Source: Zingiber officinale
Lineage: Eukaryota > Streptophyta > Magnoliopsida > Zingiberales > Zingiberaceae
Reading direction: 5' to 3'
NCBI RefSeq assembly: GCF_018446385.1
Contig: NC_055986.1
Location: forward strand, 25,034,302-25,098,301
DNA: 64,000 nucleotides
The notes beneath the pieces are model-generated. The model was not told where the DNA came from and did no database searches. It was given only the letters and a program-made list of their open reading frames with translations. This document shows, in pieces, positions 10,304-50,197 of the stretch; position 1 is the stretch's first letter; every line of letters begins with the position of its first letter. A program made the translations under genes and the position numbers.

Positions 10304-13300
10304 ATGGATTCCAAGCAAACCCTAGGAACTATGGCGGACGAGAAGAGATTGAGTGCTTTGGTGGAAGAGGAGGAGTCCAAAATTGCCCTTCTTTCCGTCT
10401 TCAAGAAAGGTAGCATCCGAAAGTATATCTTCCTCAACCTCCCCCCTCCGCCGCCGCACATGGAGAAAGCCGGAGGCAACGCCAGCCCTCGCGATCGGTT
10501 ACTCCGAGGAAGAAGGGAGGGAAATGAAAATGAAGATGAAGATAAAGACGGTCCGATCCTCTTTGGCCGGCACCCCAATTGCCATATCGTCTTGGATCAC
10601 CCCAGCGTCAGCCGCATCCACCTCGCCGCCCGCCTTGTTCCTTCCAAGCAAAAGTTATCCGTCATTGATCTCTCATCCGGTGATTATTAAATGTCTAGTT
10701 TTTTGCCCCATTCTTCATGATGTAGTTATTCATTATTCGTCCATTGCTTTCTGTGTACAGTTCATGGAACGTGGATTTCGGGAACTAGGATCGCGCCGAA
10801 CACTACTGTGGACATGGTGGATGGCGATTCACTGAGGTTTGGTGCTTCGACGAGGTTTTATAGGCTTCAGTGGCTCTCGGTGAGCCAGGCGATGGAAATG
10901 GAGAACCCGTTGGAACCTGTCCTTGAAGGCAAAGAAGAAACTTATCAGGCATTGATTCAAGTCCTTTGATCTCAATAAAAATGTCGTCTTTTGTGCAATT
11001 TTTGCTTGAAGTTTGATCTTTCAGGAGGATTGTGGAGAGTTACTTGCTGGAGGTTATGATTTGCTGTTGCCCAATGTAATCCCGTCTGCACCGCCTTTGC
11101 CGGAAGTTTCGAGTTCATCACCTTTGCCACCTGGAATAGCGCAGCGGAGCCCAGAGAGGAAGGTGACTGAAGTACAAAGATCAAATTTGCTTTCTTCTGC
11201 GCCAGAAGAAGTTTTGAATTCATCACTTCTTCCATCAATAACGGAAAACCAAAGCGCTTCAAAGGAGTTGGAAATTGAGAACTTAGGTTTCCCTTCTGTT
11301 GCGCCAATAGGAATGGAGCTGCGGAGCCCAGACGGGAAGGTGACGGAAGTACAGAGATCAAGCTTTCTTTCTGTTGTGCCAAAAGAAGAGCCTGCCCTTG
11401 AAGGCAAAAAAGAAACTTATCAGGTATTGATTCAAGTCCTTTGATCTCAATAAAAATGTCGTCTTTTGTGCAATCTTTGCTTGAAGTTTGATCTTTCAGG
11501 AGGATTGTGGAGAGTCACTCGCTGGAGACCATGCTTTGCTATTGTCCAATGTAATCCCTTCTGCACCGCCTTTGTCGGAAGTTTTGAGTTCATCACCTTT
11601 GCTACCGGGAATAGCGCAGCTGAGCCCAGAGAGGAAGGTGACTGGAGTACAAAGATCAAAATTTCTTTCTGCTGCGCCAAAAGAAGTTTTGAATTCGTCG
11701 CTTCTGCCATCAATAACTGAGCACCAAACCGCTTCAAAGGAGTTGGAAGTTGAGAACTTAGGTTTCCTTTTGGTTGCGCCAATGGAAACGGAGAAGCAGA
11801 GCCCTACGAGGAAGGAGACAGAAGCTGAGAGCTCAAGCTTCCTTTCTACTGCGCCAATTAAGAATTTGAACTCATCTATGCCACCAGAAAGGGAGAATCA
11901 CAGTCCACAGAGGAAGGAGCTCCAAGTTGAGAACTCAAGCTTCCATTGTAATTCACCAATGATGGAATCTAATGGATCTCTGATGTCAACTGTAGCAGTG
12001 GACTCGATCAAAATTATGAATTCATCAACTCTGCCACAGGATATGCAGCATCCGAGCCCGGTTTGGAAGGAGTCAGAAATTGAGAGCTCAAGCTTCCATT
12101 CTGTTGCAACAATGGTAGATTCTATTGCATCTTTGATGTCAACTGTGGTAGTGAACTCGAGTAAAATTTTGAACTCATCACCTCTGTCACAGAAAATGGA
12201 GCATCATAGCCCAGCAAGGAAGGTGCCAGAAGTTGAAAACTCAAGCTTCCATTCTGCTGCACCAATGGTCGAATCTTTTGGATCTTTGATGTCAGCTGTG
12301 GTAGTTGCTTCCAACGAAATTTTCAACTCATCATCTCTGCCAGAAGAAATGAATCGTCAGGGCCCGCCAAGGAAGGAGTCTGCAGTCGAGAACTCAACCT
12401 TCGATTCTTCTTCACCAATGGCGGAATCTATTGGATCCTTTATGTCAACTATGGTAGTGGACTCTAGCGAAATTTTGAATCCATCACCTCAATCACAGGA
12501 AGCAAAGCATCAGAGGCCATTAAGGAGAGAGCCAGAAGTTGAGAGCACAAGCCCTCGTTCAGCTGCACCAATAGAGTACTCAAACCCTCAGGTTTTGTCT
12601 GTTACTAATCTGTCATCAGAGCCAGAGCATCTGACCCCAAAGAGGTCTGATAAGAGGAGAGCATCATCTAGCCTCTTATCGAGGAGGAGCAAGATGAAAT
12701 CGCTTGGCTTCCTTAGCCTTGACACTGAAAGAGATAAGAAGAAAGTTCAACATGCAAAAACTGAGAGTGAAGGTGTTGATAAGGAAAACCACCATGTTTT
12801 TGAGCAAACCAAAAGAGAGGATAAACTCTGTAGAGTGCTATTTGACAATGAAGGAGAGAAGAAGCAAATCAGAGAAGAATTTTTTGATTCAGACAAGGAG
12901 AATGTCACCCCAATGTCATCGCGCCGCAAGATTATGAAGAGGAGCCCTCGAATTCTGCATCAATCCTTAGGCGTTGTAGAACAATCTAAGGTTGAGCAAA
13001 ATGCTATTATCCCTTCAGCTAACAGCTTTAAGAGCCAGAAAACATTGAAAGCTAATATATCTGCAGCAAAATCTGATCAGCAAGAGTTGATTGCAAGTTC
13101 ATGTTGGTTAGAAGACATTCATATTGATAAAGAAAACTCTATCATGGAATCTTGCAAGGGTAAGAAATCAAGGAAAACCTCAAGTCGGACTCCTCTGGTA
13201 GTTCAAGACAATGAAGAAGCATTTCCTTGCAACAAGGAGAATATGACGCCTGAAATTTCGGTATCTCTAAAGTCAAAAGAACTGCTTCTTAATAATACTT

Positions 13301-14496
13301 GTGCAAGAATTGAAAAGGAGATCATGAAGAAAAGAGTTGAAAGGATTCCGTTGCAGTCTCTGCTGAATAATACTCCTTCAAAACCTAATGATGCTCTACA
13401 TTCGATGAAGCCTTCCAAGGGTAATTCTGTTTCCATTGAAGATGACCTGGTCACAAAATGCCAACTGAATAATCGATCTATTGTAAGTTCCCTCTTTCGT
13501 TCTTTGCCTGCAACTTGATTTTATCAATGGATCATTTTGTTAATGTCAATGAAAATTTAAGACACAGCCCATGGGCGGTGAAGTGCTCCATAAAACAGAG
13601 GAGAGGAAAATCTGGCACCTTGTCGTCGATGCAAATTGCTTCCTAGATGAAGAATCAACAAAGTCCTTACGACTTTTAGAGGGATTAAAAGGGACTCATC
13701 TCATCATTCCTCAAATTGGTAAGCAGCTGAATTCTTACCTTGTTCGACATCCTCAGAGTTGGCTGATGCTATGTATTTTTTTTTCTCAGTATTAAGGGAA
13801 CTTGATTGCCTCAAGCGGCGTGAGAGTTTTTTCAGCAAATCAACAAAAATGGCATCCAAAGCACTGCAATGGATAGAAAAATGCATGGTGAACGTGAGCT
13901 GGTGGATTCATGTCCAGAGCTCGTTTGAGACTCTGCCAGCAGCACCAACCCCTCCCATTTCACCTCGGTCACCATTGTTTACTGGCCCTAAATCATCTTT
14001 CTCCTCCTGCGGAAACTTGACAGACATTGTTTCCCCGACTGCAGAAGACCACATCCTTGATTCCGCACTCTTTTTCAAGAACAGGAAAAGGGACGGACAA
14101 TTTGTCATCCTATCCAACAGCATCACGCTAAAGATCAAAGCCATGGCAGAGGTACGAATTTCAAATTTATACTTTTCCCAACTGTGGCCGCGGAATGGTC
14201 AGAGCTGAGAAAAATCGTCTTCTTTTCAGGGGTTGCTAAGCGAATCACCCAAGGATTTCCGCGCGAGTCTCGTGAATCCATTTTCAAAGAGGTTCCTATG
14301 GGCGAACAGCAGCCCGAGAGGATCAACTTGGTCCTGCTCCACTGATACTGCCCTATTCAATAACCATCTCCATCCAGAACCTTTAAGAAAAGTAGGCAAA
14401 GCACCTGCGGACGTGAAAGGGTTGAAGCTGATACTGCTTCACAATGCCCAGTTTGCCCAAACGAACTCTACCTTTCCATTCACAGGCAGTGAGTGA
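10304..14496 (+). CDS. PS1: FHA and PIN domain protein, PARALLEL SPINDLE 1-like
   Basis: The model has seven exons: 10304-10679, 10761-10948, 11025-11423, 11500-13482, 13568-13718, 13790-14151 and 14230-14496. They give 1241 aa with all phases closing. An FHA domain (about residues 84-170) has GRHPNCHIVL, SVSRIH and HGTWI. The middle is Ser-rich, with four 51-aa repeats and four KEN motifs (about 749, 787, 865, 900). A C-terminal PIN domain starts at VVDANCFLDE (D1003), with RELD (1035-1038) and LSNSITLKIKAMAEG. Arabidopsis PS1 has the same FHA-to-PIN layout and orients meiosis II spindles; its loss gives unreduced pollen. Oddities are an extra duplicated exon (exon 3), a GC donor at intron 2, and Ser where PIN relatives usually have Asp in 'LSND'. 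The ATG at 10331 (MADEKR) is an equally good start and resembles the Arabidopsis N-terminus. Confidence 0.87.
10915..11865 (+). repeat. 475-bp tandem duplication of an intron plus exon inside PS1
   Basis: Copy A (about 10915-11389) and copy B (about 11390-11865) each hold the end of a coding exon (LEGK-E-ETYQ), a 76-bp intron, and an exon starting EDCGE(L/S)LAG. The splice acceptors at 11024 and 11499 are exactly 475 bp apart. The intron copies are nearly identical, while the exon copies differ more. The duplication is in phase and adds 133 residues. Confidence 0.92.
11917..12528 (+). repeat. Four in-frame 153-bp (51-aa) repeats in PS1 exon 4
   Basis: Units run 11917-12069, 12070-12222, 12223-12375 and 12376-12528, with a partial fifth from 12529. 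The protein pattern is roughly E-x-x-V-E-N-S-S-F-H, then M-V-E-S-I-G-S-L-M-S-T-V-V-V, then ILNSS, then H-x-S-P-x-R-K. All units are exactly 51 codons. Earlier exon text (for example QRSPERKVTEV and LNSSLLPSITE) looks like older, more diverged versions. The region is Ser-rich and probably disordered. Confidence 0.9.
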
Positions 14497-14649: not shown

Positions 14650-15780
14650 TTAGAGAAGGTTTAAGGCAGCTACAACTTCTCCCATGGCGGGCCTGTTCCT
14701 GGAATGCTCTTCGGTGCAGTGGAAGGCCACTTCCAAGTATGCCCTCACCTCGCTCTCCACTACACCTTCGCTCCCCATCTCGCGGTCTAGAATCTCCGGG
14801 ATCCGCCCCTGCTCTACCATCCGGCGCACCCAGTTTACCAGCAGCATCTCTTTCCCTCTGGCGCCCCCCTCCTGTCGCACACCCAGGTTCGGCCGTCGCC
14901 CCGTCGCCACCTCCAGCATCAGTATCCCGAAGCTGTACACGTCCCCCTTCACCGTGGCCGCCGTCGCCCCTTCCCAGTACTCCGGCGCCATGTACCCCAC
15001 CGTCCCCGCTACCTGGGTCGACACGTGCGTGCGGGGCGCCTCCACCAGCCGCGCCAGTCCGAAGTCGGTGATGCGCGCCCCAAACCCCTCGTCCAGCAGC
15101 ACGTTGCTGGCCTTGATGTCGCGGTGGATCACCGCCGGGCGGCAGCCCTCGTGGAGAAAGGCCAGCCCCGCTGCCACTCCGCGCACGATGCCCAGCCGCG
15201 TCGGCCAAGGAAGCCGCCGGGGATGCCCCTCGGCGTCCGTCTCGTGCAGCCACTCGTCCAGGCTGCCGTGCTCGACGTACTCGTAGATCAGCAGGCGGTC
15301 GCGGCCCGCGACGCAAAACCCTAGCATGCGCACCAGGTTTGGGTGGCGGATCGGCCCTAGGGTGTCCATCTCCGCCTTGAACTCGCGCACGCCGTGCGCG
15401 GCGTCCGCGGAGAGCCGCTTCACCGCGACCGTGGCGCCCGACGAGAGCCGCGCCTTGTAGACGAACCCGAAGCTGCCGTCGCCGATGATGCCGTCCGCCG
15501 CGAAGTTCCTGGTGGCCGCGGCCAACTCCGACATGGAGATCTGGTCCAGGGACGGGTCGTACAAGGTGCTGCTCTCGCCGTCGGCGTAGGAAATGGACAA
15601 GGCGCCGGGACGGCCAAGCGAGCGGAGGACCGGCGAGTCCTCGACGGCGGATTCGATTAGGGGACCCGAACGGCGGGACTCAAAGCGGCGACTGCAGAGG
15701 AGGAGGATGACGACGAAAAGGAGGGAGACGAAGATGAAACTAGCTACAGTGGCGATCAGCACTTGGAGAGGCGACACCAT
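14650..15780 (-). CDS. Receptor-like serine/threonine kinase without ectodomain
   Basis: A single exon encodes 376 aa. Residues about 6-29 are a hydrophobic signal-anchor segment followed at once by SRRFESRR, so the kinase should face the cytosol. There is no leucine-rich or other ectodomain. The kinase core looks complete: GDGSFGFVYKA glycine loop (100-110), K121 in VAVKRLS, E137, IHRDIKASN (218-226), DFGLAR (239-244), APE (265-267) and a terminal RNRPAMGEVV block. HRD makes it an RD kinase. The sequence resembles the kinase part of monocot LRR receptor kinases of the PSKR/EMS1 (LRR-X) kind, but the subfamily is from memory. Third codon positions are strongly GC-rich. The start at 15780 is the first ATG and gives the membrane segment. 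The gene could be a truncated receptor or a bona fide short RLK acting with a partner. Confidence 0.85.
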   Translation of the reverse strand: MVSPLQVLIATVASFIFVSLLFVVILLLCSRRFESRRSGPLIESAVEDSPVLRSLGRPGALSISYADGESSTLYDPSLDQISMSELAAATRNFAADGIIGDGSFGFVYKARLSSGATVAVKRLSADAAHGVREFKAEMDTLGPIRHPNLVRMLGFCVAGRDRLLIYEYVEHGSLDEWLHETDAEGHPRRLPWPTRLGIVRGVAAGLAFLHEGCRPAVIHRDIKASNVLLDEGFGARITDFGLARLVEAPRTHVSTQVAGTVGYMAPEYWEGATAATVKGDVYSFGILMLEVATGRRPNLGVRQEGGARGKEMLLVNWVRRMVEQGRIPEILDREMGSEGVVESEVRAYLEVAFHCTEEHSRNRPAMGEVVAALNLL

Positions 15781-36895: not shown

Positions 36896-39405
36896 TGTTG
36901 GTTGCTACTCGGAAAACCTAGAGGTTCCACTGTACAAAAATTTTGTACAAAGGTCTGAATCTTTTCCTAGCTACCATGTGTTCTTTTAAATTAAATTTTA
37001 GATCGCCTGCGGAACTTAACACGTTTGATCCAAAACTTAATCTATTCGTTCTTTTAGGTTTTGACTTGGGTCTCCTGCGGAACTTAACACGTTCGACCCA
37101 AATCACCTTAAGTTATTAATTCAATTAAATATTAATTTTCATAATTGGTTCTCAGTACTGACGTGGTGAGGCACATGACCTTCTTGGATATGGGAGCAAC
37201 CACCACCGACTAGACAAAACCTTTTATGGAAAGCTAATATTTAATTAAAATAACTTTAGGTTAACCAAAAAGAACAATCAAATCACAAGGGAAAGAAAAA
37301 CAAAAGAACACTATATCGAAAACAAATTCGAAACTCTAGAATCGTATGCCTCTTGTATTTAGTATTATTTCCAAAAATAACTAGTATGATGCGGAAACAA
37401 AAATTACTAGTTATACCTTTTAGAAAGACCTCTTGATCTTCTACCGTATTCCTCTTCTAACCTCGGATGTTGTGTGGGCAATGATCTTCCGAGATGAGAA
37501 CCACCAAGCACCTTCTTCTTCCTTACAAGTTTCGGCCATCAAAACTTCTCCTATGATGAAGAGGTTCGGCCACCACCACCATGCTCCAAGGGATGCTAGA
37601 AAAGATGCTTCTCCTTCTTCTCCTTCTTAGATCCGCCACCAAAGCTATCTCCACCATGAGAAGGTTTCGGCCACACAAAGGAGAGGAGAGGAAAGAAAGA
37701 GCCGGCCACACCCAAGGAGAAAAGAGAGGAAAAATAGAATAGAGTCGTTAGCCTTGAAGCCTCCTCTACCCCCTCTTTTATAATCCTTGGTCTTGGCAAA
37801 TAAGGAAAATTTAATAAAAACTTCCTTAATTCTTTTGCCATTGAAAAGGAAAATTTATTTAATTAAAATAATTTTCTCTTTTCAAATTATAATGGCCGGC
37901 CACTCTTTCCCCAAAACAAGGAGAGTTTTAATTAAAACAAAATTAAAACTTCCTAATTTGTTTCTAGAAATTTATAAAATTTCTCCAATAATTTTAATTC
38001 CTTCATGATTGGTTAATAAAAAGAAATTTTATAAATTAAAATCTTTCTTTTAAACATGTGGATAATTTCCAAAAGGAAAGTTATCTCTAAAATTAAAATC
38101 TCCTTTCAATCTACAAATAAGGAAAGATATTAAATCTTTTCTTAATCTTTAGAAACTAATAAAAGAGAATTTTAATTTTTAAACTTTCTTTTAAATCATG
38201 AATATAATTAAAAGGAAAGTTTTACCAAAATTAAAATCAACCTTTAATCTACAAATAAGGAAAGAGATTTTAACTCTTCTCTTAATCTTTTGTAGAATCT
38301 TATAAAAGGAAAGATTTAAATTTTTAAACTCTCTTTTAAATTATATTATCCACATAAGAAAAATTTTAAAATTAAAATTCCTTTTTATTTTAATAGGGAC
38401 GACCACATGAATTCACCCATGAACATACCCATGGCCGGCTAGCTTGGCCGGCCCCTATAGGATGGGTAAGAAGGTGGGTATAGGTGGGTATAATATTCTA
38501 TAATTAAGAGGCTACGATAGGGACCGAGAGGAGGAATTGGTTTTGGTCTCCCGATAAAATTAAGCATCTCGTGTTCGCCCCCGAACACACAACTTAATTT
38601 TATCAATAATAATTCATTCCACTAGAGAATTATTATTGAACTACCGCACCAATCCCAAATTACATTTTTGGGCTCCTTCTTATTATGAGTGTGTTAGTCT
38701 CACTGTGTTTAAGATATCGAATGTCCACTAATTAAGTGAGTTACTGACAACTCATTTAATTAATATCTAAATCCAAGAGTAGTACCACTCAACCTTATTA
38801 TCATGTCGGACTAAGTCCACCTGCAGGGTTTAACATGACAATCCTTATGAGCTCCTCTTGAGGACATTATCAACCTAGTATCTCTAGGACACAGTTTCCT
38901 TCTATAATCAACAACACACACTATAAGTGATATCATTTCCCAACTTATCAGGCTTATTGATTCATCGAACTAAATCTCACCCATTGATAAATTAAAGAAA
39001 TAAATATCAAATATATGTGCTTGTTATTATATTAGGATTAAGAGCACGCACTTCCATAATAACCGAGGTCTTTGTTCCTTTATAAAGTCAGTATAAAAGA
39101 AACGACCTCAAATGGTCCTACTCAATACACTCTGAGTGTACTAGTGTAATTATATAGTCAAGATAAACTAATACCTAATTACACTACGACCTTCTAATGG
39201 TTTGTTCCTTTCCATTTTGGTCGTGAGCTACTGTTTATAATTTATGATAACATAATCTTCTGCATGTGACACCACATACTATGTTATCTACAATATAAAT
39301 TAAATGAACAACTACAAACAAATGTAGACAATTTGACCAAATGTGATTCTTTATTCATAATAAATATTTATACCAAAAGCTAGGCTTTTAGTATACACTC
39401 TAACA
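36896..39405 (-). repeat. 3' LTR of the copia element
   Basis: It is a 2510-bp LTR running, on the minus strand, from TGTTAGAGTGTATACT to GCAACCAACA. It contains no gene. Matching ORFs here and in the other LTR are duplicated non-coding sequence. Confidence 0.92.
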
Positions 39406-43813: not shown

Positions 43814-46336
43814 TGTTGGTTGCTACTCGGAAAACCTAGAGGTTCCACTGTACAAAAATTTTGTACAAAGGTCTGAACCTTTTCCTAGCTACCATGTGTT
43901 CTTTTAAATTAAATTTTGGATCGCCTGCGGAACTTAGCACGTTTGATCCAAAACTTAATTTGTTCTTTTAGGTTTTGACTTGGGTCTCCTGCGAACTTAA
44001 CACGTTCGACCCAAATCACCTTAAGTTATTAATTCCATTAAATATTAATTTCCATAATTGGTTCCCGATCTTGACGTGGTGAGGCACATGGCCTTCTTGG
44101 ATATGGAGCAACCACCACCGACTAGACAAAACCTTTTATGGAAAGCTAATATTTAATTTCCTAAAATAACTTTAGGTTAACCAAAAGAACAATCAAATCA
44201 CAAGGAAAGAAGAAAACAAAAGAACACTATATCGAAAACAAATTGAAACTCTAGAATCGTATGCCTCTTGTATTTAGTATTATTTCCAAAAATAACTAGT
44301 ATGATGCGGAAACAAAAATTACTAGTTATACCTTTTAGAAAGACCTCTTGATCTTCTACCGTATTTCTCTTCTAACCTCGGACGTTGTGTGGGCAACGAT
44401 CTTCCGAGATGAGAACCACCAAGCACCTTCTTCTTCCTTACAAGTTTCGGCCATCAAAACTTCTCCTAGGATGAAGAGGTTCGGCCACCACCACCATGCT
44501 CCAAGGGATGCTAGAAAAGAGGCTTCTTTTCTCTCCTTCTTCTCCTTCTTAGATCCGGCCACCAAAGCTATCTCCACCATGAGAAGGTTTCGGCCACACA
44601 AAGGAGAGGAGAGGAAAGAAAGGGCCGGCCACACCCAAGGAGAAAAGAGAGGAAAAATAGAATAGAGTCGTTCGCCTTGAAGCCTCCTCTACCCCCTCTT
44701 TTATAATCCTTGGTCTTGGCAAATAAGGAAAATTTAATAAATACTTCCTTAATTCTTTTGCCATTGAAAAGGAAAATTTATTTAATTAAAATAATTTTCT
44801 CTTTTCAAATTATAATAATGCCACTCTTCTCCCAAACAAGGAGAGTTTTAACTAAAACAAAATTAAAACTTCCTAATTTGTTTCTAGAAATTTATAAAAT
44901 TTCTCCAATAATTTTAATTCCTTCATGATTGGTTAATAAAAGAAATTTTATAAATTAAAATCTTTCTTTTAAACATGTGGATAATTTCCAAAAGGAAAGT
45001 TATCTCTAAAATTAAAATCTCCTTTCAATCTACAAATAAGGAAAGATATTAAATCTTTTCTTAATCTTTTGTAGAAACTAATAAAAGAGAATTTTAATTT
45101 TTAAACTTCTTTTAAATCATGAATATAATTAAAAGGAAAGTTTTACCAAAATTAAAATCAACCTTTAATCTACAAATAAGGAAAGAGATTTTAACTCTTC
45201 TCTTAATCTTTGTAGAATCTTATAAAAGGAAGGATTTAAATTTTAAACTCTCTTTTAAATTATATTATCCACATAAGAAAATTTTAAAATTAAAATTCCT
45301 TTTTATTTTAATAGGACGACCACATGAATTCACCCATGAACATACCCATGGCCCTAGCTTGGTCTCCAAGCTAGCTTGGCGGACTCTATAGGATGGGTAA
45401 GAAGGTGGGTATAGGTGGGTATAATACTCTATAATTAAGAGGCTACGATAGGGACCGAGAGGAGGAATTGGTTTTGGTCTCCCGATAAAATTAAGCATCT
45501 TCGCCCCGAACACAACTTAATTTTATCAATAATAATTCATTCCACTAGAGAATTATTATTGAACTACCGCACCAATCCCAAATTACATTTTTGGGCTCCT
45601 TCTTATTATGAGTGTGTTAGTCTCCCTGTGTTTAAGATATCGAATGTCCACTAATTAAGTGAGTTACTGACAACTCATTTAATTAATATCTAAATCCAAG
45701 AGTAGTACCACTCAACCTTATTATCATGTCAGACTAAGTCCACCTGCAGGGTTTAACATGACAATCCTTATGAGCTCCTCTTGAGGACATTATCAACCTA
45801 GTATCTCTAGGACACAGTTTCCTTCTATAATCAACAACACACACTATAAGTAATACCATTTCCCAACTTATCAGGCTTATTGATTCATCGAACTAAATCT
45901 CACCCATTGATAAATTAAAGAAATAAATATCAAATATATGTGCTTGTTATTATATTAGGATTAAGAGCACACACTTCCATAATAACCGAGGTCTTTGTTC
46001 CTTTATAAAGTCAGTATAAAAGAAACGACCTCAAATGGTCATACTCAATACACTCTGAGTGTACTAGTGTAATTATATAGTCAAGATAAACTAATACCTA
46101 ATTACACTACGACCTTCTAATGGTTTGTTCCTTTCCATTTTGGTCATGAGCTACTGTTTATAATTTATAAGGTACTGATAACATCATCTTCTGCATGTGA
46201 CACCACATACTATGTTATCTACAATATAAATTAAATGAACAACTACAAACAAATGTAGACAATTTGACCAAATGTGATTCTTTATTCATAATAAATATTT
46301 ATACCAAAAGCTAGGCTTTTAGTATACACTCTAACA
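43814..46336 (-). repeat. 5' LTR of the copia element
   Basis: It is a 2523-bp LTR, highly similar to the one at 36896-39405, directly followed on the minus strand by the primer-binding site. It ends at the target duplication that resumes the tandem array. Confidence 0.92.
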
Positions 46337-49300
46337 ATATCTCCATTCTATAATCTAAAAACTTGCTACGAATTGTGAAATAGTTTAGAAATTCAAATAA
46401 GCTAGGTCTAACACTGGATTTGAAGTCTACAACATGTAATTGGAAATTTATAATATTATTATAATTTAGCTTAAATCTCTAACTAAGTTTTGACTTAAAA
46501 ATAAATTGGTGATTGTTGTTTTTGTAAATTAAAATTTGACAGGGTGTGTTGTTCATTAAAATCCTTAAGGTACACATGTTCCGTGCCAACAAGCACGGAG
46601 CAAGAATTTTAACTGTAACAGTTATAACTAAGTTTTGATACTATATCTAGATTTTTCTCTCTCAAACATTCCTAGGGAACATGAATTTAAAGAAATACAA
46701 GTACCCTAGGGCCATCAGTGGATTTTGGTCAAAATCTACTGATGGATCTAGACAGGTCTGATTACACTCATTTCAAGTCTTGTGAGTTTATGGTCTTACA
46801 AGGACTCCAACGATATTATCCATTACTTATTTATAGCTCTCTAGATGTGATCAAACATTACAAAAAAATTTAGCTTGATTGTAGGCTTGATATGTGATAA
46901 TATCATGCCCACGTTAAGGCTGATATTATCCTATATCAGGCCTACGTTGAGCATGATATGGTATCATATCAAGCCGAACTTGGGACTGATAGGTTGGGAG
47001 CTTGGTCACTTTATTCAACCAATTACTACTAAGTTTTTGATCCCGATATCTAAAACTCAAGACTATATCTCCGTTCTATAATCTAAAAACTTACTACAAA
47101 TTATGAAATAGTTTAGAAATTCAAATAAGCTAGGTCCAACACTAGATTTGAAGTTTATAGCGTGTGATTGGAAATTTTTAATATTATTGTAATTTAGCTT
47201 AAATCTCTAACTAAGTTTTGACGTAAAAATAAATTGGTGGTTGTTGTTTTTGTAAATTAAAATTTGACAGGGTGTGTTGTTCATTAAAATCCTTAAGATA
47301 CACATGTTCTGTGTCAACTGGCATACAGTAAGAACTTCATTTGTAGCGGTTACAACTAAGTTTTGACACCATATCTAGCTTCTCCTCTCTCAAGCCTTCC
47401 CGGGGAATGTGAATTTGAAGAAATCTAAATACCCTAGGGCTATTAGTGAGTTTCAATTAAAACCACTGATGGACCTAGGCAGGTCTTATTGCACCCATTT
47501 TAAGGTTTGTGAGTTTTTGGTCTTGCAAGGACTCCAACGGTAGTATCTATTAGTTATTTATAGCTCTATAGAGGTGATTGAACGTTATGAAAAAATTTAG
47601 CCTGATTGTGGGCTTGATATGAGATAATATCAAGCCCATGTTGGACCCAATATTATTCCATATTAGGCCTATATTGGGCCTGATATGATACCATGTCAAG
47701 CCTAACGTGGGCCTGATAGGTTGGGACCTTGGCCACTTTTTCATCTGATCACTACTAAGTTTTTTATCCCGATATCTAAAACATGAGACCATATCTCCAT
47801 TCTATAATCTAAAAACTTGCTACGGATTGTGGAATAGTTTAGAAATTCAAATAGGCTAGGTCCAACACAGGATTTGAAGTCTACAATGTATGATTAGAAA
47901 TTTTTAATATTATTGTAATTTACTTAAATCTCTAACTAAGTTTTGACTTAAAAATAAATTAGTGGTTGTGTATTTTGTAAATAAAATTTGGCAGGGTGTG
48001 TTGTTCATTAAAATCCATAAGGTACACATGTTTCGTGCCAACTGGTATGGAGCAAGAACTTCAACTGTAACAATTACAACTAAGTTTTGACACCATATCT
48101 AGCTTCTCCTCTCTCAAACCTTCCTAAGGAGCGTGAATTTAAAGAAATCCATGTATCCTAGGGTCATTAGTGGATTTTGATTAAAGTCCACAGATGGACC
48201 TAGACAAGTCCAATTGCACCCATATCAAGTGTTATGATTTTTTAGTCTTTCAAGGACTCTAACGGTGTTATCTATTACTTGTTTATAGCTCTCTAGAGGT
48301 GATTGAATATTACGAAAAAAATTCAACCTGATTATAGGCTTGATAGGTTGGAACCTTAGCTGCTTTGTTCAATCGATCACTACCAAGTTTTTGATCCCGA
48401 TATCTAAAACTTGAGACCATATCTCCATTCTATAATCTAAAAACTTGCTACGCATTGTAAAATGGTTTATAAATTCAAATAGCTTATGTCCAAAGCTGGA
48501 TTTGAAGTCTACAGCATGTGATTGGAAATTTCTAATATTATTGTAATTTACCTTAAATCTTTGACTAAGTTTTGACTTAAAAATAAATTGGTGGATGTTG
48601 TTTTTGTAAATTGAAATTTGACAGGGTGTGTTGTTCATTAAAATTGTTAAGGTACACATGTTCTATGCCAACTGGCAATGAGCAAAAACTTCATTTGTAG
48701 TGGTTACAACTAAGTTTTGACATCAGATCTAGCTTCTCCTCTCTTAAATCTTTCTAGGGAATGTGAATTTGAAGAAATTGAAGTACCCTAAGACCATCAG
48801 TGAGTTTCGATCAAAGTCCATTGATGGATCTAGACAAGTCCAATTGCACCAATTTCAAGTTTGTGAGTTTTTCATCTTACAAGGACTCTAATGATGCTAT
48901 CCATTACTTATTTATAGCTCTATAGAGGTGATCGAATGTTATAAAAAAATTCAGCTTGATTGTGAGCCTGACATGGGATAATATCAGGCCCACGTTGGGC
49001 TTGATATTATCCCATATTAGGCCCATGTTAGGCCTAATATGGTATTATATCAGGCCCAACGTGAGCTTGCTGGTTGAGACCTTGGCCTCTTTGTTCAATC
49101 TATCACTACCAAGTTTTTGTTCTCGATATATAAAACTTAAGACCACATCTCCGTTCTATAATATAAAAACTTACTACGGATTGTGAATTAGTTTAGAAAT
49201 TCAATTAGGCTAGGTTCAACACTGGATTTGAAGTCTACAATGTGTGATTGGAAATTTCTAATATTATTGTAATTTACCTTAAATCTCTAACTAAGTTTTG

Positions 49301-50197
49301 ACTTAAAAATAAATTCGTTATTGTTGTTTTTTATATTAAAATTCTACAGGGTGTGTTGTTCATTAAAATCCTTAAGGTACACATGTTCCATGCCAACTGA
49401 CACATAGCAATAACTCTATTTGTAGTGGTTAAAACTAAGTTTTAACACCATATCTAGCTTCTCCTCTATCAAACTTTCCTAGGAAATATAAATTTGAAGA
49501 AATCTAAGTACCCTAGGGTCATCAGTGGGTTTCGGTCAAAATCCATTGATGGACGTAGACAAGTCCAATTGCACCCATTTCAAGTCTTGTGAGTTTTTGG
49601 TCTTACAAGGACTCTAACGGTGCTATCCATTACTTATTTATAGCCTTTTAGAGGTGATCAAACGTTACGAAAAAATTTATCTTGATTGTGGGCCTGATAT
49701 GGGATAATATCAGACTCACATTGGGCCTAATATTATCTCATATTAGGCCCATGTTGGGCCTGATAGGTTGGGACCTTGCCCGCTTTGTTTAACCGATCAC
49801 TATTAAGTTTTTGTTCCCAATATCTAAAACTTGAGACCATATCTCCATTTTATAATCTAAAAACTTGCTACAAATTGTAAATTAGTTTAGAAATTCAAAT
49901 AGGCTAGGTCCAACATTGGATTTGAAATCTATCGTGTGTGATTGGAAATTTCTAATATTATTGTAATTTACCTTAAATCTTTAACTAAGTTTTGACTTAA
50001 AAAATAAATTGGGAATTGTTGTTTTTGTAAACTAAAATTTGAAAGGGTGTGTCGTTCATTAAAATCCTTAAAGTACAAATGTTCCATGGCAACTTGCATA
50101 GAGCAAGAACTTCAATTGTAGTAGTTACAACTAAGTTTTGACATCATATATAACTTCTCCTCTCTCAGACCTTCCTAGGGAATGTGAATTTGAAGAA
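46337..50197 (+). repeat. Left tandem array, units of about 630-730 bp
   Basis: Units start near 46337, 47065, 47791, 48419, 49145 and 49839, each at a(t/c)atctcc(a/g)ttctataat. Lengths are about 728, 726, 628, 726 and 694, then a partial unit ending near 50197. Each unit carries the recognisable phrases acttgctac, gtgtgttgttcattaaaat, gtgccaactggc, cttctcctctct and ttgcaaggactccaacgg. Most have a block of about 75-105 bp of GGCCTGATAT-type palindromes (for example about 46884-46990). The 47791 unit lacks it, as does 36271. The array belongs to the element holding the Ulp1 gene. Confidence 0.9.

Follow-up and report, generated by a model that had tools for sequence, protein, structure and literature searches.

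The window, a 64,000-nucleotide stretch of the Zingiber officinale genome (G000:C1:25034302-25098301, with C2 as the allelic haplotype contig), contains an open FHA-PIN gene, PS1, whose coding exons are given in Table 1. The predicted protein has an FHA domain (PF00498) at residues 86-153 (E 3.1e-14; 53.6 bits against a Pfam cut-off of 20.7) and a PIN_4 domain (PF13638) at residues 1002-1161 (E 1.7e-22; 80.5 bits, cut-off 21.9). Both scores are far above the cut-offs and agree with the sequence-only reading, which had already taken the gene to be of the PS1 type. A protein search of the genome with the PIN part matched only C1 and C2 (six matches, three per haplotype; all eight first-look candidates were scored), and the single functional locus that is a trait of PS1/PSL genes in most genomes is, as far as sequence can tell, also found here. 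The first PIN aspartate aligns with EST1A/SMG6 in a weak match (E 0.25), and the alignment stops short of the later motif. That late motif, encoded at 13790-14151, is SNS in both alleles and stands at a position which, matched by eye rather than by alignment, we presume to be usually an aspartate. A serine at aspartate-233 has been described in some grasses (PMC3071787).

The linker of 795 residues (189-983) contains seven [ST]Px[KR] motifs for cyclin-dependent kinases, where shuffling predicts 1.5 (p 0.0008); the count is inflated by the location of most motifs in homologous repeat units, which are not independent. An SPxRK-like core is common to the repeat units at about 11080-12640 (residues 208-730); seven of nine units, picked with a pattern of our own choosing, keep SP. 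PS1 is adjoined on the minus strand (~14650-15780) by an open receptor-like kinase gene, named by reading its protein, in which the two haplotypes differ by one nonsynonymous and seven synonymous changes over the part of the frame that was compared. Elsewhere in the window are three direct-repeat pairs (37320-38886 and 44235-45809), 97-99% alike and 6915-6923 bp apart, which are perhaps the long terminal repeats of a young retroelement, and a degenerate tandem array of up to six copies with a period of ~630-730 bp (46241-50135).

Table 1. Features of the PS1 locus (window positions; a slash marks the exon-intron boundary).
Feature	Position	Strand	Basis or remark
PS1 (FHA-PIN) gene	10304..14496	+	Conceptual splicing; 1243 aa, single terminal stop
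PS1 coding exons (7)	10304-10679, 10761-10948, 11025-11423, 11500-13482, 13562-13718, 13790-14151, 14230-14496	+	Conceptual
Copy 1 of the 475-bp unit	10916..11390	+	Repeat finder, direct comparison
Intron, copy 1	10949..11024	+	76 nt; GC donor (CAG/GCATTG) in both haplotypes, AG acceptor
GT within the copy-1 intron	10961..10962	+	12 nt into the intron; weak (CAA/GTCCTT); would add 4 codons in frame
Extra exon, 133 codons	11025..11423	+	366 nt post-intron plus 33 nt duplicated from the preceding exon
Copy-1 tail	11303..11390	+	69/88 to units 11126 and 11601 each; 61/88 to copy-2 tail
Copy 2 of the 475-bp unit	11391..11865	+	Repeat finder, direct comparison
Intron, copy 2	11424..11499	+	76 nt; GT donor (CAG/GTATTG), AG acceptor; conceptual splicing
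Older tandem repeats, next exon	11911..12572	+	153 bp (51 residues), 4.3 copies; Tandem Repeats Finder

Two copies of one unit, exactly 475 bp apart, lie within PS1 at 10916-11865. The repeat is called by Tandem Repeats Finder (10916-11847; period 475, 2.0 copies, 89% matches) and by alignment of the copies, which differ at 61 of 475 positions. Each copy comprises 33 exon nucleotides, a 76-nt intron and the start of the following exon; the duplication is head-to-tail and took in a whole intron with exon sequence on either side. Likeness between the copies ends within a few bases to the left of 10916. The reading frame is preserved because the coding part amounts to 399 nt and both introns are in phase 0, and the added exon is open. 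Thus, both the spacing of the copies and the in-frame gain of a 133-residue exon, as claimed by the sequence-only reading, hold true under the conceptual gene model. PS1 without the duplication would consist of six exons separated by five introns. The possibility of a chance repeat was rejected.

In the last ~75 nt of the unit, 24 of 75 positions differ between the copies. At its end, copy 2 matches three repeats further downstream (62 to 63 of 88 positions) about as well as it does the copy-1 tail, whereas that tail is closer to two other units (Table 1). Two origins of the tail are conceivable: an earlier end of the duplication with another unit added on, or overwriting by conversion between adjacent units. 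The 153-bp repeats in the next exon, together with the repeat regions of AtPS1, suggest that the PS1 linker is prone to internal duplication.

The two haplotypes are 96.6% identical over 6.6 kb. The C2 allele has the same two-copy structure with differences of its own and is open over 1230 aa; the three coding indels that separate the haplotypes all have lengths divisible by three (39, 3 and 3 nt), and the 39-nt deletion is private to copy 2 of C2. A decayed, frameshifted PS1 paralogue is present on another contig, C14 (about 746900-749400; 74% identity over bases 11-400 of a 951-base query). It has a single copy of the intron at the same place, with the donor CAG/GTTTTT, and, at the DNA level, short remains of exon 5 (window 13617-13692) and of exon 7 (14384-14469) with no exon 6 between them; the PIN-part protein search gave no match on C14. 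No trace of a second copy of the unit was seen in this paralogue, although, as a relic, it might have lost one. A second allele of the C14 type was not found in a search that matched only C14, C1 and C2 (three first-look candidates scored). The intron of the single-copy C14 relic was also the reason to reject the Rogers model, in which a new intron arises from a duplicated exonic AGGT.

The C14 relic adjoins a paralogous copy of the kinase gene that lies next to PS1 on C1, forming a syntenic block. The kinase genes of the C1 and C14 blocks have a dS of 0.296, those of the two haplotypes 0.024. The peak Ks of the ginger whole-genome duplication is 0.3-0.4, with a value of 0.3 corresponding to about 27 million years (PMC8342452). 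The kinase value for the two blocks is similar to this peak, and the C14 paralogue appears to be left over from the Zingiberaceae genome duplication. Where the exon can be aligned, the two PS1 copies are closer to each other (19 differences in 180 sites) than to C14 (44 and 43 in 177). Over the whole coding unit, the copies have a dS of 0.194 (C1) and 0.173 (C2); the values are 0.212 and 0.190 over the post-intron part, and 0.149 and 0.126 over the first 201 nt after the intron. Linear scaling of dS places the duplication very roughly 11 to 19 million years ago, a loose date whose upper end nears the genome duplication, since the binomial interval for 16 synonymous differences in 97 sites is 10 to 25%. 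The event had been called recent; however, copy dS of 0.13-0.21 compares with 0.02 between alleles, and by this measure the duplication is much older than the allele split. It is probably younger than the Zingiberaceae genome duplication, given its absence from C14 and the divergence values, the age being approximate. The duplication is thus real, fairly old and of a known kind; as a gene duplication it is ordinary.

The introns of the two copies are nearly identical while their coding parts differ more, as had been noted from the sequence. The proposed comparison of exon and intron divergence gives 2 differing sites of 76 in the introns versus 59 of 399 in the coding part (Fisher p 0.002). 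Dropping the last 75 nt reduces the coding value to 35 of 324 (p 0.027), and synonymous sites with the second half of the exon left out give 7 of 59 (p 0.041). Thus, the exon excess is smaller than it appears and extends to synonymous changes. Two things produce the contrast: the introns are unusually similar, and the final ~75 nt of copy 1 look like a different repeat unit. The donor accounts for one of the two intron differences. Strong constraint was rejected as the cause of the intron likeness because the intron is not slow relative to C14 (16 of 71 sites differ, versus 44 of 177 in the exon); the direct contrast of intron/exon ratios, copies against C14, is not significant (Fisher p 0.22). 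In a permutation test for gene conversion, with the last 90 columns left out, tracts of 90, 106 and 120 nt containing no more than one, two and three differences gave p values of 0.025, 0.027 and 0.031, respectively, and the longest identical run (49 nt) gave p 0.25. These values lend weak support to gene conversion of the intron region between the copies, which may have occurred.

All six PS1 introns end in AG and five begin with GT; only the copy-1 intron begins with GC (10949-10950), in both haplotypes, a feature overlooked by the sequence-only reading. Because the copy-2 intron of both haplotypes and the C14 intron have GT, the simplest history by parsimony would be one T-to-C donor change in copy 1, after the duplication and before the allele split. 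This derived GC donor is the one unusual feature of the duplication. Computed pairing with the U1 end is -4.5 kcal/mol for the GC donor and -7.2 for the copy-2 donor, with the remaining four donors between -5.4 and -8.0; the value for the GC donor is not far outside the range of the other donors of the gene. The GC donor also departs from the consensus at +4 to +6, and its splicing could therefore fail more often than the term 'leak' used below implies.

The predicted product is 1243 aa when both introns are removed. Retention of the GC intron would lead to a premature stop at 194 aa, past the FHA domain, as would retention of both introns (194 aa), while retention of the copy-2 intron would give 327 aa and skipping of exon 2 would give 136 aa, each with a premature stop. 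Two further outcomes stay in frame: skipping of the extra exon (1110 aa) and use of the GT 12 nt into the copy-1 intron (1247 aa), a donor with U1 pairing of -1.4 that leaves a 64-nt intron.

The probable explanation is that an internal tandem duplication has been kept open and that the usual mRNA contains both exons, joined through a weak GC-AG intron with some retention. Within the repeat-rich PS1 linker, a tandem duplication in the ginger lineage, probably later than the Zingiberaceae genome duplication, would have taken in 33 nt of exon, the second intron in full and ~290-366 nt of the exon that follows; the donor of the first intron would then have changed from GT to GC. Both copies are open in both alleles. 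The first intron is presumably spliced out as a U2-type GC-AG intron, weakly and perhaps with some leak, so that both exons are probably included and PS1 would gain 133 linker residues. Some transcripts would retain the first intron, stop past the FHA domain at 194 aa and be cleared by nonsense-mediated decay.

Several other readings were weighed against this one. An artefactual duplication in the assembly is practically negligible: both haplotype contigs carry the unit, its copies differ at more than a tenth of their positions, and one haplotype has its own 39-nt deletion. It is also highly improbable that positive selection on the duplicated exon drove the copies apart, as might be concluded from the faster change of the exon relative to the intron. 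In Nei-Gojobori counts for all six pairs among the four copies, two pairs have dN/dS above 1 (copy 1 of C1 versus copy 2 of C2, 1.12; second copies of C1 and C2, 1.44 on only 11 changes) and the first copies of C1 and C2 give 0.79; however, copy 1 versus copy 2 within a haplotype gives 0.80 (C1) and 0.93 (C2). Synonymous differences between the copies (16.5 of 96.5) are likewise far above intron divergence, and part of the coding excess comes from the tail, which is not simple divergence. The positive selection considered in the sequence-only reading is therefore not borne out. Its other suggestion, relaxed constraint, fits the data but is not special to the duplicated exon, being common to the repeat part of the linker: between the haplotypes, dN/dS is 0.95 for residues 189-321 and 1.11 for residues 322-730.

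A sterile clonal crop could also be losing PS1, with the GC donor and the fast linker as marks of lost function. Cultivated ginger has been described as sterile and its pollen as highly so (PMC8342452), dN/dS between haplotypes is 0.75 for the whole gene, and residues 1-188, which include the FHA domain, have nine nonsynonymous changes and one synonymous change (dN/dS 2.66), a pattern not suggestive of strong constraint on the N-terminal part. This loss is nevertheless improbable, since both alleles are open (1243 and 1230 aa), the GC donor occurs in both haplotypes and hence predates their split, and pollen sterility in ginger has been tied to inversions (PMC8342452). Moreover, dN/dS falls to 0.20 for residues 731-983 and 0.36 from 984 to the end; the difference from residues 1-730 (Fisher p 0.011) rests on half-counts rounded in the direction favouring a difference. 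It is somewhat less improbable, but still unlikely, that the GC donor is poorly used or not used for the short intron and that full-length protein comes from transcripts that leave out the extra exon, with the first donor joined to the second acceptor, or that use the GT at +12. Exon 3 (399 nt) is in phase 0 on both sides and could be skipped in frame, the +12 GT would cost only four extra codons, and in rice, alternative donor sites are enriched in GC (P = 3.05e-47; PMC1769492). However, skipping exon 3 still depends on the same GC donor of exon 2, and the +12 donor pairs even worse with U1.

PS1 of ginger offers an allele-confirmed and roughly dated case in which internal duplication multiplied a whole intron, with a single-copy paralogue as the earlier state and a GT-to-GC donor change confined to one of the copies. 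The two 76-nt introns, which differ at the donor and at one other base, form a natural test pair for GC splicing in plants within a gene tied to unreduced pollen. It is a long shot that the duplication left one of the tandem introns free to become a poorly spliced 'poison' intron, that the GT-to-GC change in both alleles sets the balance between full-length PS1 and an FHA-only product, and that this could contribute to abnormal pollen meiosis or unreduced pollen in ginger.

The literature on PS1 in ginger, ginger pollen and meiosis, and AtPS1 splicing does not describe the duplication in the titles and opening abstract lines of the best matches, a set that excludes most subscription journals; the passages found on carnation DcPS1 (PMC9128087) contain nothing on its introns. 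AtPS1 and other plant PSL proteins have an N-terminal FHA domain, a C-terminal PIN domain and a serine-biased linker of variable length, with three repeat regions in AtPS1 (PMC2581889), and ginger PS1 shares this architecture of FHA, variable linker and PIN with the proteins of Arabidopsis, potato and soybean. PS1/PSL genes act in orienting the spindle at meiosis II, a role that the ginger gene may have as well. AtPS1 has seven exons (PMC2581889), and six exons with five introns are predicted for potato PSL1 (PMC3071787). In the available passages of these two papers, neither a duplicated intron-plus-exon nor a GC donor is mentioned. Potato PSL2 cDNA keeps the second intron and has a premature stop, and PSL1b, 1c, 3a and 3b keep complete or partial introns, all five forms being possible targets of nonsense-mediated decay according to the authors (PMC3071787). 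The retained second intron of PSL2 resembles the predicted retention of the GC intron in ginger, without homology of the two introns being assumed. GC-AG introns make up about 1% of introns (PMC3033335; PMC7072748), or 1.3% of ~2.46 million in one survey (PMC3033335); like those of the U2 type, the intron at 10949-11024 combines a GC donor with an AG acceptor, its excision here being predicted.

Arabidopsis TOUCH3 has internal tandem duplications (Knowles and McLysaght 2006, as cited in PMC4974935) and, as in ginger PS1, a whole existing intron was duplicated in tandem with flanking exon, which is multiplication and not creation of an intron. TOUCH3 is a different gene, and the relevant passages of PMC4974935 mention no donor change after its duplication. 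In potato RdRp, a tandem duplication over an intron-exon boundary likewise alters gene structure; however, a new intron and a new donor were created there, whereas in ginger PS1 the whole parental intron was copied (PMC4974935).
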